From Neisseria weaveri (GTDB lineage: Bacteria; Pseudomonadota; Gammaproteobacteria; Burkholderiales; Neisseriaceae), in NCBI RefSeq assembly GCF_900638685.1, contig NZ_LR134533.1, positions 2,170,001 through 2,234,000 of the forward strand: 64,000 nt of DNA, given 5' to 3'. Positions within the stretch are counted from its first letter, which is position 1, and each line of letters begins with the position of its first letter. The notes beneath the pieces are model-generated. The model searched no databases. It saw only the letters and a list, made by a program, of their open reading frames with translations, and had not been told where the DNA came from. Both the position numbers and the translations under genes were made by a program. Below are positions 52,305-62,588 of the stretch, piece after piece.

Positions 52305-52926
52305 AAAACACCGTATTCAGCAAAGCTAGAAGCAGCAAGGTTTTACGCTGATTTTGTTTTTTGTCAAGCTTGAAACTGCTAATTTTTTTGCATTATCCAC
52401 ATTGACAAGGCGGCAGATAATGGCATGCCTATTTTTCTTGATTCAGGATGTTGACAAGTGTGTGAAAAATTTAAATATATGATTTTATTTATAAATAATT
52501 AAAGGCTTATTTTTTATGCAGCAATGGCGGAAGCCGTGATTTTACAAGGCAAAAGCGCTTAGTTCACAATTAATCCACAAAGTTATCCACAAAAGTTGTG
52601 GGTTATTACTCCATATCATTGTCCAGACTGGATTTCGTTAAAAAAGCCGACGCAAAACGGAAAAGCAGTCGCTTTTCAGACGGCCTGAAAAAGTTTTATT
52701 TTACGGAAACGGTTTGCAGGCAGAACGTGTTTTGTTTCCGTTTAAACAAACTTCCAGTTCTTTTTACTTTATCCGATATGGGAAACAGGCCGTCTGAAAC
52801 TCTGAAATCTTCAGACGGCCTATTCATATATTCCACCATCAGCGCGCCGGGAAAACAGACATTAGTTTCAGATGGCCTTTTATGTTAAAATCACCGACTA
52901 TTGTCTTACTGAATCCAAACATAATC
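52305..52926. other. Long intergenic region with DnaA-box-like sites upstream of gyrA
   Basis: This 620-bp stretch holds two TTATCCACA sites (52393-52401 and 52583-52591), TAATCCACA (52571-52579) and an AT-rich block (about 52465-52515) between them. Further right are a lone DUS (52675-52686), an inverted DUS pair (52787-52821) and a variant TTCAGATGGCCT (52867-52878). No gene is seen. It could be a replication-origin-like or DnaA-regulated element. Confidence 0.55.
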
Positions 52927-55674
52927 ATGACTGATGCCACCATCCGAAACGACCACCATTTTGCCAAAGAAACCATTCCCATCAGCTTGGAAGAGGAGAT
53001 GCGCCGCAGCTATCTCGATTATGCGATGAGTGTGATTGTCGGACGCGCGCTGCCCGATGTGCGCGACGGTCTGAAGCCGGTTCACCGCCGCGTCTTATAC
53101 GCCATGCACGAGTTGAAAAACAACTGGAACAGCGCGTATAAGAAATCTGCCCGTATTGTCGGCGACGTAATCGGTAAATACCACCCCCACGGCGACTCAG
53201 CCGTATATGACACGATCGTGCGTATGGCACAGGACTTTTCCATGCGCTATATGCTGGTTGACGGTCAGGGCAACTTCGGTTCGGTAGACGGCGACGGCGC
53301 GGCAGCCATGCGTTATACCGAGATCCGCATGGCGAAAATCGCCCACGAAATGTTGGCGGATATCGAAGAAGAAACCGTTAATTTCGGCCCGAACTACGAC
53401 GGTAGCGAGCATGAACCGTTGGTGTTGCCTACACGTTTCCCTGCATTGCTGGTTAACGGCTCTTCCGGCATTGCCGTCGGCATGGCCACCAATATTCCTC
53501 CGCACAACCTTCCCGATACCATCAATGCATGTCTGCAATTATTGGCAGACCCGCAAACCGATATCGATGTGCTGATCAATACCATCAAAGCACCCGATTT
53601 TCCGACCGGAGCCACGATTTACGGCATGAGCGGTGTGCGCGAAGGCTATAAAACCGGCCGCGGCCGCGTGGTGATGCGCGGTAAAACGCACATTGAGCCT
53701 ATCGGCAAAAACGGCGAACGCGAAGCCATCATCATTGACGAAATTCCTTATCAAGTAAACAAAGCCAAGCTGGTTGAGAAAATCGGCGAGCTGGTGCGCG
53801 ACAAAGTGCTGGAAGGCATCTCCGATTTGCGCGACGAGTCCGACAAATCGGGCATGCGCGTGGTTATCGAACTGAAGCGCAACGAAAATGCCGAAGTGGT
53901 GTTAAACCAGCTTTACAAGCTCACCCAGCTGCAAGACAGCTTCGGCATCAATATGGTGGCGCTGGTGGACGGTCAGCCTCGTTTGCTGAATCTGAAACAG
54001 ATTTTGAGCGAATTTATCCGCCACCGCCGCGAAGTGGTTACCCGCCGCACCTTATTCCGCTTGAAAAAAGCCCGTCACGAAGGCCATATCGCCGAAGGTA
54101 AAGCCGTTGCCTTATCCAATATCGACGAAATGATCCAATTGATCAAAGAATCCGCAGATGCCCCGGAAGCCAAAGAAAAAATGCTGGCCCGTCCGTGGCG
54201 TTCCTCTTTGGTGGAAGAGATGCTGTCGCGCACCGATTTGGATTTGACAATGGCGCGCCCTGAAAACCTTCCGGCGGGACTGGGTTTACAGCAAAACGGC
54301 TATTTCTTAAGCGAACTGCAAGCCGATGCCATTTTGCGCATGAGCCTGCGTAACCTGACCGGTTTGGATCAGGACGAAATCGTTAAAGACTACAAAAGCA
54401 TCATGGCAAACATTATTGATTTGCTGGATATTTTGGCCAAATCGGAACGTATCGACGACATTATCCGCACCGAATTGGAAGAAGTGAAGGCACAGTTCGG
54501 CGACGAACGCCGCAGTGAAATCAACCCGTTCGGCGGCGATATTGCCGACGAAGACCTGATTCCGCCGCGCGAAATGGTGGTAACGCTGACGCACGGAGGC
54601 TATATCAAAACCCAGCCGACTACCGACTATCAAGCCCAGCGTCGCGGCGGACGCGGCAAACAGGCTGCGGCAACCAAAGACGAGGATTTCATTGAAACCC
54701 TGTTTGTTGCCAATACCCATGATTATCTGATGTGCTTCACCAACTTCGGCAAATGCCACTGGATTAAGGTATACAAACTGCCCGAAGGCGGACGCAACAG
54801 CCGAGGCCGTCCGATTAACAATGTGATTCAGTTGGATGAAGGCGAAAAAGTCAGCGCAATCCTGCCGGTACGCGAATTCCCCGAAGACGAATATGTATTC
54901 TTCGCAACCGCGCAAGGCATGGTGAAAAAAATCCAACTGAGCGCATTCAAAAACGTCCGCAGCCAAGGTATTAAAGCGATTGCTTTGAAAGAGGGCGATC
55001 ATTTGGTCGGTGTCGCCAAAACCGGCGGTAACGACGATATCATGCTGTTCTCCAACCTCGGCAAAGCCATCCGCTTCAATGAATATTGGGAACGCAGCAA
55101 CGAAGCGGAAGATGCCGATAGCGAAAACGAAGATTCAGACGGCATCGAAACCGATGCGGCCGAAGACGACAGCAACGAAACTGCCGCACCGAAAGCAAAC
55201 GGCGTACGCCCGTCCGGTCGCGGCAGCGGCGGATTGCGCGGCATGCGCCTGCCTTCAGACGGCCGCATCGTCAGCCTGATTACCTTCTCGCCGGAATGCG
55301 AGCAAGACGCCGCCTTGCAGGTGTTGACTGCCACGGAAAACGGCTACGGCAAGCGCACCCCGATTGCCGACTACAGCCGCAAAGGAAAAGGCGGGCAGGG
55401 CAACATTGCCATCAACACCGGCGAGCGTAACGGCGAATTGGTTGCCGCGACACTGGTGGCGGAAACCGACGATTTGATGCTGATTACCAGCGGCGGCGTA
55501 TTAATCCGCACCAAAGTCGAGCAAATCCGCGAAACAGGCCGAGCTGCGGCAGGGGTGAAGCTGATTAATCTTGATGAAGGAGAGACGCTGGTTAGTCTGG
55601 AACGCGTAGCCGAAGAACCTGAAGAGGCTGCCGTAGAGGAAAACAGCGCATCTCCAGAAAACGTTACAGAATAA
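52927..55674 (+). CDS. gyrA: DNA gyrase subunit A
   Basis: This 915-residue subunit begins [15 protein letters not shown], the Neisseria GyrA start (frame open from 52882). The active-site Tyr is in the [10 protein letters not shown] segment. The quinolone-determining residues read [10 protein letters not shown], with Ser91 and Asp95 wild type. The C-terminal beta-pinwheel has the GyrA-box QRRGGRGKQ near residue 575. An acidic insertion (about 720-760) carries SDGI encoded by ATGCCGTCTGAA in reverse (55134-55145); SDGR near 777 is an 11/12 DUS. The DUS array follows the stop. Confidence 0.97.
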
Positions 55675-55694
55675 TCAAGATTCTATGCGTATAA

Positions 55695-55930
55695 AAGGCC
55701 GTCTGAAAATTTCAGACGGCCTTTTTTTCAGACGGCCTTTTTTTCAGACGGTCTTTTTTTCAGACGGTCTTTTTTTCAGACGGCCTTTTTTTTCAGACGG
55801 CCTTTTTTTCAGACGGCCTTTTTTTCAGACGGCCTTTTTTCAGACGGCCTTTTTTCAGACGGCCTTTTTTCAGACGGCCTTTTTTCAGACGGCCTTTTTT
55901 CAGACGGCCTTTTTTCAGACGGCCTTTTTT
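55695..55930. repeat. Tandem array of 14 uptake sequences after gyrA
   Basis: One AGGCCGTCTGAA is followed by 14 direct copies of its reverse complement, starting at 55713, 55729, 55745, 55761, 55777, 55794, 55810, 55826, 55841, 55856, 55871, 55886, 55901 and 55916 (position of the C in CAGACGG). The period is 16 bp (once 17) in the first half and exactly 15 bp in the last seven intervals. Units 3 and 4 read CAGACGGTCT. The first two copies also form a terminator-like hairpin for gyrA. Confidence 0.95.
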
Positions 55931-56035
55931 GTTCCGACTACCGTTAAAATAAGATAAAGTTTTGACTTATTATGCAAAAAGAGTCAAGCTAGCTGTATCA
56001 GATTCTGTCCGAAACTTTAGTATTAGAGGCATATA

Positions 56036-57727
56036 ATGACTGCAACCCAATTGATTCAATCGCTTACCAAAATTGTCGGCGAAGATTTTATTATTACCGA
56101 TCCTGCAAAAACCGAGCCTTACCGTCAGGGCTACCGTTTTGGCGAGGGCAAAGCGTTGGCGGTTGTCCGGCCGGGCACTTTGTTGGAGCAGTGGCAGGTG
56201 TTGCAGGCTTGTGTGGAAGCGGATGTTATCGTGTTAACTCAGGCGGCGAATACCGGGTTGACGGGCGGTTCGACGCCGGACGGTAATGATTACGACCGCG
56301 ACATTGTGATTGTCAACACCATGCGGATGAACATTATTCAGTTGATTAATAATAACGAGCAGGTGGTGTGTTTGCCGGGTGCGACCTTAAACCGTTTGGA
56401 AAAATTGCTGAAGCCGTTGGGGCGCGAGCCGCATTCGGTAATCGGTTCGTCTTGTATTGGGGCGTCGGTATTGGGCGGGGTGTGCAACAACTCCGGCGGT
56501 GCTTTGGTTCAGCGTGGGCCGGCTTATACGGAAATGGCTCTGTTTGCGCAATTGGATGAAAACGGCAGCCTGCAGTTGGTGAATCACTTGGGCATTGAGT
56601 TGGGCGATACGCCGGAAGAAATTCTGACCAATCTGCAAGGCCATCATTATCAGCGTAAAGACATTAAGTTGGATGCGGGCAAAGGCCACGATCATACTTA
56701 TTGCGACCATGTGCGTTGTGTCGACGAGCCGACTGCGGCGCGTTTCAATGCGGATCCTTCCCGGCATTACGAGGCTTCGGGTTGCGCGGGCAAGCTGATG
56801 GTGTTCGCGGTGCGCTTGGATACGTTCCCCGAAGAAAAAAATACGGCGGTATTTTATATCGGCACGAATGATATCAACGAGCTGACCGATATACGCCGTG
56901 CGGCGTTGGCTCAGTTTGCCAATTTGCCGGTATCGGGCGAGTATATTCATCGCGACGCGTTCGATATTGCCGATGTATACGGCAAGGATACGTTTTTTGT
57001 GATTAAGCAGTTTGGGACGCACAGGCTGCCTGCTTTATTCGACTGGAAGGCTAAAATCGACCGTTTCGGCAGGAATTTCCGCTTTTTGCCTAAGCATTTT
57101 TCCGATAAGGCTTTGCAGTTTGCCGGCCGTTTTCTGCCCGACCATCTGCCGAAGTCGTTACGCAGTTACCGCGACCTTTACGAACACCATTTGATTTTGA
57201 AAATGGGCGGTGACGGTGTGGAAGAGGCGAGAAGTTTTCTGAAAAATTATTTTGCTGCCAAAACGGGGGCTTACTTCGAGTGTAGTCCGGAAGAAACCCA
57301 AGCGGCGATGCTGCACCGTTTTGCCGTTGCTTCCGCAGCCGTGCGCTACCGTGCCGTGCATGATGATGAAGTTGAAGATATTGTGGCTTTGGATATTGCT
57401 TTGCGTCGCGACGATAGGGACTGGTTTGAACGTCTGCCGTCTGAAATCGACAGTAAAATCAGCCATAAGCTGTATTACGGCCATTTTATGTGCCATGTGT
57501 TCCATCAGGATTACATTGTGAAAAAAGGCCATGATTGTGTGGCGTTGGAGCATGAAATGCTGGCCTTGCTGGATCAGCGCGGTGCGCAATATCCTGCGGA
57601 GCATAATGTCGGCCACCTTTATGAAGCGAAGCCTGCTTTGAAGCAGTTTTACCGCAAACTGGATCCGACCAACAGCTTTAATCCGGGCATAGGCAAAACG
57701 TCTAAGAAGAAATATTGGGCTGAATAA
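56036..57727 (+). CDS. dld: Quinone-dependent D-lactate dehydrogenase
   Basis: This 563-residue FAD enzyme oxidises D-lactate at the inner membrane face. The FAD-binding PCMH region (about 38-210) contains TQAANTGLTGGSTPDGNDYDRD and SSCIGASVLGGVCNNSGGALVQRGPAY. The membrane-binding C-terminal part (LFDWKAKIDRFGRN...PKHFSDKALQ) is typical of the E. coli Dld family. Full length. ATG 56036 has AGAGGC upstream (weak). A DUS hairpin follows. A promoter lies to the right of the DUS array, perhaps TAAAGTTTTGACTTATTATG near 55950-55975. Confidence 0.95.
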   Translation: MTATQLIQSLTKIVGEDFIITDPAKTEPYRQGYRFGEGKALAVVRPGTLLEQWQVLQACVEADVIVLTQAANTGLTGGSTPDGNDYDRDIVIVNTMRMNIIQLINNNEQVVCLPGATLNRLEKLLKPLGREPHSVIGSSCIGASVLGGVCNNSGGALVQRGPAYTEMALFAQLDENGSLQLVNHLGIELGDTPEEILTNLQGHHYQRKDIKLDAGKGHDHTYCDHVRCVDEPTAARFNADPSRHYEASGCAGKLMVFAVRLDTFPEEKNTAVFYIGTNDINELTDIRRAALAQFANLPVSGEYIHRDAFDIADVYGKDTFFVIKQFGTHRLPALFDWKAKIDRFGRNFRFLPKHFSDKALQFAGRFLPDHLPKSLRSYRDLYEHHLILKMGGDGVEEARSFLKNYFAAKTGAYFECSPEETQAAMLHRFAVASAAVRYRAVHDDEVEDIVALDIALRRDDRDWFERLPSEIDSKISHKLYYGHFMCHVFHQDYIVKKGHDCVALEHEMLALLDQRGAQYPAEHNVGHLYEAKPALKQFYRKLDPTNSFNPGIGKTSKKKYWAE

Positions 57728-62460: not shown

Positions 62461-62588
62461 TTCAGACGGCCTCTGTGGGATACGGAGGCCGTCTGAAATT
62501 TTATACGGTGTTTATGGCAAATAAGTGTGTTTGCTTTTTTCAGACGGCCTGTTTTTCAGACGGCATTCGGGTAAAAAGGCCGTCTGAA
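62461..62588. repeat. Cluster of five uptake sequences between ung and recB
   Basis: Within 128 bases are TTCAGACGGCCT (62461-62472), AGGCCGTCTGAA (62486-62497), TTCAGACGGCCT (62539-62550), the AT form TTCAGACGGCAT (62555-62566) and AGGCCGTCTGAA (62577-62588). The last two can pair as a recB terminator on the minus strand. Confidence 0.85.

Follow-up and report, generated by a model that had tools for sequence, protein, structure and literature searches.

Downstream of the gyrA gene of Neisseria weaveri, 14 DNA uptake sequences (DUS) stand head to tail in a single orientation. The window considered here is the whole 64,000-nucleotide stretch of chromosome that was analyzed (2.170-2.234 Mb of the contig), and coordinates of five digits refer to it. 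The features at the locus are as follows.

52882..55674, + strand: gyrA (DNA gyrase subunit A), the upstream gene; ORF with NCBIfam TIGR01063 and NF004043 above cut-off
55693..55725, + strand: perfect hairpin with a 15-bp stem and a 3-nt loop, then a T-run; formed by the forward AG-DUS (55696-55707) and array unit 1 (55711-55722)
55696..55707, + strand: lone opposite-facing AG-DUS (AGGCCGTCTGAA), found by sequence reading and by script; its core is at 55698
55711..55930, - strand: AG-DUS tandem array of 14 units, TTCAGACGGCC plus a T-run as read on the + strand
55743..55774, - strand: array units 3 and 4, with one substitution in common (AGACCGTCTGAA, DUS position 3)
55824..55930, - strand: homogeneous block of seven units, 15-bp steps throughout
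56036..57727, + strand: dld (D-lactate dehydrogenase), the downstream gene; ORF with NCBIfam NF008387

Following the gyrA stop codon (55674), the order is AGGCCGTCTGAA, AAT, TTCAGACGGCC, and then 13 further copies of TTCAGACGG[C/T]C with T-runs between them, ending at 55930, approximately 105 bp ahead of the dld start. Both sequence reading and a script identify the repeated unit as the reverse complement of AG-DUS, so that the array belongs to this dialect, which is also the main one of the genome (447 of 528 cores in a 400-kb sample). The exact 10-base core is present in 12 of the 14 units, and the other two, units 3 and 4, differ at position 3, where GGTC replaces GGCC. Units start at 55711, 55727, 55743, 55759, 55775, 55792, 55808, 55824, 55839, 55854, 55869, 55884, 55899, and 55914, which gives steps of 16, 16, 16, 16, 17, 16, and 16 bp, and then six of 15 bp. 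Tandem Repeats Finder (TRF) reports 14.1 copies at 55710-55930 with 97% matches. An ORF at 55685-55957 merely runs across the repeats.

An earlier note on this DNA had described 14 copies in one orientation behind gyrA, a period that drops from 16-17 bp to exactly 15 bp, and a substitution held in common by two adjacent copies. The first of these claims is borne out by the sequence, the script, and TRF, the second by the unit starts, and the third by units 3 and 4. The interval of that note, 55695..55930, takes in the opposite-facing DUS, which its count of 14 leaves out. Elsewhere in the window, five DUS cores of mixed orientation lie within about 130 bp (62461-62588).

With its short unit (within the range of roughly 10-60 bp) repeated head to tail, the array is a minisatellite. 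It resembles bacterial minisatellites, or VNTRs, in its short head-to-tail unit, its homogeneous blocks, and its restriction to certain lineages, but its unit is an uptake motif, and DUS arrays are known here from one genome per species. CRISPR arrays likewise consist of regular short repeats with spacers. However, their spacers are unique, whereas those of DUS arrays belong to the repeat unit and vary little or not at all within an array.

The lone forward DUS and the first array unit together form the hairpin listed above, which begins 18 bp past the gyrA stop. Its RNA fold is -23.4 kcal/mol (z -8.1), and none of 200 shuffled sequences folded equally well. In sequence, this GC-rich hairpin followed by a T-run has the makeup of an intrinsic (Rho-independent) terminator. 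A simple terminator scan reported no site at the hairpin, and therefore the evidence for a terminator is the fold and the conserved position. That position was assessed among Neisseria genomes, 45 of 46 of which have a match to the C-terminal part of GyrA. We compared 30 of these loci (our own and 29 others). A single inverted DUS pair lies directly 3′ of the gyrA stop at 25 of the 29 other loci (both arms carry a one-base variant in G001, and one arm has one mismatch in G005), and the pair is missing in G026, G041, G039, and G019. None of the 29 has tandem DUS copies within 200 bp of the stop. Among the loci compared, the closest by the GyrA part examined (G028, 95%) has a plain DUS pair. Because the inverted pair is the usual state and tandem copies were found at none of the other loci, we infer that the gyrA array is the amplified arm of an ordinary DUS hairpin. 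The hairpin itself is predicted to be the usual DUS-pair terminator of gyrA. Like the inverted DUS pairs known as intrinsic terminators in Neisseriaceae, it consists of an opposite copy and unit 1 at the customary position behind gyrA. Those pairs comprise two copies, whereas here one arm is present 14 times in one orientation.

Of 30 loci checked for this arrangement, only ours has gyrA within 1.5 kb upstream of dld, and in the other 29, dld is preceded by no same-orientation DUS neighbors, save for one pair in G034. The D-lactate dehydrogenase itself has a whole-length identity of at most 88% to any other genus genome compared. Repeat tracts switch expression in phase-variable neisserial genes, and array length might similarly alter gyrA read-through or the dld promoter. 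The array does sit between two co-directional genes, and a promoter-like site lies just past it (55944-55973). However, this site matches only 9 of 12 consensus bases and is one of three in the scan (two of them on the other strand), compared with 0.5 in shuffled sequences. Other arrays, at the purF and 577 kb loci, are located between convergent ORFs, and thus the arrays have no common regulatory setting. We consider an expression switch quite unlikely.

The earlier note had also suggested counting tandem DUS arrays genome-wide, and the gyrA array turns out to be one of at least ten arrays of five or more units on this chromosome. The census combined pattern searches of the whole genome (among the matches listed) with TRF on fetched stretches, and arrays made purely of altered cores could escape it. 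The other nine arrays are as follows.

398 kb: 16 units of 17 bp
481 kb: 5 units, two with altered cores
577 kb: 12 units, 4 and then 8 of two spacer classes
797 kb: 12 units, one altered
1.942 Mb: 15 units, two altered
1.947 Mb: about 69 units of 19 bp
1.979 Mb: 22 units, of which 14 are altered at DUS position 3, then five canonical
2.033 Mb: 21 units
2.126 Mb: 24 units

The ten arrays thus range from 5 to about 69 units and hold approximately 210 DUS or near-DUS units in total, and at least two shorter runs, of 3 and 4 units, exist besides. Each array has its own spacer, which indicates that each grew in place. A three-unit pattern built on the TTCAGACGGY core gives 141+22 overlapping matches in this genome, and chance is excluded because the same pattern read backwards matched nothing in all 46 genus genomes. 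Ten proteins that flank the arrays were scanned with NCBIfam. They include the products of gyrA, dld, purF, serC, folC, pta, and ruvX, a succinate-semialdehyde dehydrogenase, a ferredoxin-NADP reductase-like protein that falls under the model cut-off, and one protein with no match.

Six of the ten arrays lie at 1.94-2.24 Mb, the last 13% of the contig, a part that was sampled more fully than the rest. Proximity to the origin was considered as a cause of this cluster and rejected, since dnaA is at 1.491 Mb and does not adjoin it. The same genome also carries a 282-bp repeat of about 20 diverged copies with 66% matches (L349:11422-17252).

It is highly improbable that the arrays are assembly or sequencing artefacts. 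The lengths of T-runs are where long-read errors gather, but the variants form blocks, ten loci have differing units, and similar arrays are present in other assemblies.

Most genomes conform to the earlier statement that DUS normally occur singly or as inverted pairs. The three-unit pattern matched in 6 of 46 genus genomes (G000, which is N. weaveri, and G004, G010, G021, G039, and G044, the last with one triple only), and the 40 without a match indicate that DUS alone are insufficient for arrays to form. Matches occurred in 5 of 25 genomes assembled in one or two contigs versus 1 of 21 fragmented ones, and short-read collapse may therefore hide some arrays. The longest arrays are those of G039, with 90, 47, and 21 units, and its match counts point to more. 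Of 83 family genomes, 21 matched a looser dialect pattern and 2 (G060 and G062) matched its reversed control. Among the matches listed, many of the genomes found with it have single mixed-dialect triples rather than arrays.

Two arrays of other composition also emerged. In G003, 16 units of the altered DUS TTCAGACTGCC, changed at position 5, form an array (L333, contig C1, about 1653202-1653467) that adjoins a terminator-like hairpin, and the upstream sequence CAGTCTGAA fits the altered arm. In G063, which belongs to another genus, one run mixes TTCAGGCTGCC and TTCAGGTTGCC units, and TTCAGGCTGCCT is the commonest such motif (4 of 11 matches) in one 12-kb piece.

Three further kinds of repeat were encountered in these searches. 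Two loci (L302 and L303, in G058 and G061) hold 20-bp repeats (TTCAGGTTGCCTGAACAAAT) with a DUS-like pattern on both strands, which makes them tandem palindromic DUS-like units; one of them sits at the very start of a contig. Perfect tetranucleotide tracts, of a type often met in phase-variable genes, are present in G039 (GCAG x34, L212:1517-1651) and G021 (CAGC x34, L221:9966-10103). Viral spread of DUS arrays was considered and set aside, since the only match on a viral contig reads as a coding repeat and not as a DUS array.

On this evidence, we think it probable that the array is a minisatellite built of units that each comprise a DUS and a few flanking bases, derived from an amplified hairpin arm by slippage or unequal recombination, and that it adds little to DNA uptake. 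The process would begin with the chance duplication of a DUS arm together with its T-tract. Slipped-strand mispairing during replication, or unequal recombination between copies, would then lengthen the array in multi-unit steps, and the same copying would spread single changes as blocks. The hairpin would still terminate gyrA, and the extra copies would contribute little or nothing to uptake. The great abundance of DUS between genes might be what makes them the seeds.

Several features of the arrays are consistent with this proposal. The gyrA array contains variant blocks, namely the two GGTC units and, further on, the six short units of 15 bp. Long runs are nearly uniform (87 of 90, 47 of 47, and 50 consecutive units), which is what recent amplification would produce. 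The array at 1.942 Mb has a spacer change and a core change at its end that recur jointly in its interior, as multi-unit copying would give. The earlier note had read homogeneous blocks as a sign of replication slippage. Slippage is indeed a good fit, as is unequal recombination, since blocks also occur in other arrays and spacers are array-specific, and the lone inverted pair that is usual after gyrA supports the claim further. The note also raised the possibility of a length-variable locus; variability of the gyrA array between strains is plausible, and the comparison set holds one genome per species.

Amplification also does not need an intact DUS. For N. meningitidis, transversions at DUS position 3 are reported to have no effect, those at positions 1 and 2 a 5- to 7-fold effect, and positions 4-10 to be critical (PMC3868556). 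All 16 units in G003 are altered at position 5. The 14 altered units at 1.979 Mb carry their change at position 3 and thus may still work as DUS, so that G003 probably shows more clearly that a nonfunctional motif can be amplified.

Three other ideas about the arrays did not hold. To detect purifying selection on DUS cores within arrays, we counted interior substitutions, leaving out the first and last units beforehand and disregarding 15 length changes. Seven changes fell in the core and seven in the spacer, against an expected core share of 0.68 for a 12-base core, which is not significant (P = 0.12). Five of the seven core changes are at DUS positions 1-3, a concentration that hints at selection on the core in numbers that are too small. 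Seeding specifically by hairpins fared no better. An opposite DUS, in some cases degenerate, lies beside 9 of our 10 arrays and 16 of 19 tabulated arrays, which is no clear excess because such a partner lies within 55 nt of 434 of the 630 non-coding DUS in our own sample (P 0.13-0.15 against a background of 0.7). Finally, steps of 14-19 bp do not, by inspection, fit helical phasing at 10.5 bp.

A functional alternative is that the array persists for its row of many ComP-binding sites, which would favor uptake of gyrA-dld DNA. AG-DUS is reported to be the motif preferred by the ComP protein of N. subflava (PMC3868556), and the commonest unit retains the 10-base core in 16 of 19 tabulated arrays. 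The change in the 14 altered units at 1.979 Mb, being at the reported dispensable position, also agrees with this reading. In transformation assays, two dispersed DUS approximately double transformation, but three give no further rise, and DUS 5 nt apart were no better than one in an earlier Neisseria study cited in the same paper (PMC3388099). A further finding cited there is that competitive inhibition is linearly related to the number of DUS. For Haemophilus influenzae, two uptake signal sequences (USS) within 100 bp gave no detectable rise in uptake, and a gain from more than one copy is noted for just one of two earlier Neisseria studies (PMC7811141). Given this published lack of gain from close copies, 14 of them are not expected to act as a strong uptake target. 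Moreover, DUS are already dense in this genome (1,023 cores in 740 kb), and the G003 array consists wholly of critically altered DUS. The earlier suggestion of a strong ComP-binding target is thus left unsupported by published Neisseria and Haemophilus tests and disfavored by G003, and we give selection for uptake only a small chance.

Whether the amplification is specific to DUS bears on a further alternative. We drew evenly spaced samples from five genomes (740 kb of G000, 400 kb each of G039 and G021, and 200 kb each of G018 and G022) and applied thresholds of our own choosing (period 12-25, at least 4 copies, at least 85% matches), keeping only the best-scoring of overlapping TRF rows. Five arrays passed. 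Three are DUS arrays, all between genes, and two are non-DUS arrays, both inside ORFs. Two of these three DUS arrays were flagged as coding by an automatic ORF mask, since reading frames extend across the repeats, and the mask was overruled from the flanking genes. One non-DUS array (L247:7394-7580, G022) has a 15-bp unit present 12.5 times in frame, giving GNTDK repeats close to the N-terminus of a lipoprotein-like ORF of 663 aa. The other (L224:17721-17856, G021) has a 14-bp unit present 9.7 times at 100% identity in an apparent hydrolase-like gene that now consists of two overlapping ORFs; because 14 is not a multiple of three, changes in copy number would shift the frame.

In the five genomes, 18-base segments around DUS make up 6-10% of non-coding bases, so that by our own arithmetic the chance of all three non-coding arrays being DUS is about 0.001, a value that depends on author-chosen thresholds and a small sample. 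Arrays outside the thresholds are mostly non-DUS, and the DUS share would drop if all of them were counted. They include, in N. weaveri, 28 copies of 15 bp at 77%, 10 of 21 bp at 69%, and 20 of 282 bp at 66%, and elsewhere a 12-bp x 5 array at 81% (G021) and units of 4-7, 69, and 268 bp (G039 and G021). Of these, only the 268-bp unit contains a DUS. Another 177 kb of N. weaveri stretches, chosen to find arrays beyond the matches listed and likewise kept out of this comparison, contained two DUS and two non-DUS arrays of at least 4 copies.

Slippage alone explains neither the three DUS arrays out of three between genes nor the 40 of 46 genomes without a match. Perhaps amplification is instead coupled to transformation, such that DNA imported by way of its DUS recombines out of register with resident copies and arrays grow where import is most frequent, a form of molecular drive. 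We give this reading a small but real chance of being correct, and the same chance to its extension, in which biased uptake leads in some lineages to runaway amplification of the motif into dozens of near-identical copies (up to 90). The occurrence of DUS in all non-coding arrays above threshold, with the non-DUS arrays confined to ORFs, speaks for such drive, and a weaker sign in its favor is that the TTCAGGCTGCC-type units of the G063 array are also the commonest such motif in the 12-kb piece. However, most genus genomes have no three-unit match, and the G003 array is built on an altered motif. The USS of Pasteurellaceae, which resemble DUS as a genome-wide uptake motif under biased uptake, differ in that no tandem Haemophilus-type arrays were found among 36 Pasteurellaceae genomes (two have one triple each), and these numbers are small.

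Tandem DUS arrays are the subject of no paper that we found by title or abstract in the open-licence PMC literature, and prior notice elsewhere is possible. The papers that describe AG-DUS, also called DUSvar1 (Frye 2013, PMC3630211; Berry 2013, PMC3868556), concern the same 12-mer, AGGCCGTCTGAA, and in the portions available describe dispersed copies and inverted pairs, as opposed to the tandem stacks seen here. The word 'tandem' is absent from the available main text of PMC3630211, PMC2397512, PMC3868556, PMC7643975, PMC10210955, and PMC11316581, and it occurs once in that of PMC7371117, for repeats in general. Minisatellites and DUS pairs are each well known, and the tandem stacking of DUS, as read from these genomes, appears to be new.

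DUS biology has so far been built on dispersed single or paired motifs. The ten stacks described here and the 90-copy stack in another species offer natural material to test whether extra adjacent motifs change uptake, and they bear on whether motifs can accumulate through uptake bias alone. DUS arrays may also break short-read assemblies and, if their length varies, could serve as strain-typing markers. Even if slippage alone explains the arrays, DUS hairpins would still be seeds of minisatellites. If transformation-coupled drive is responsible, then the arrays would amount to a bacterial equivalent of satellite DNA made by drive, following whichever dialect the genome uses.
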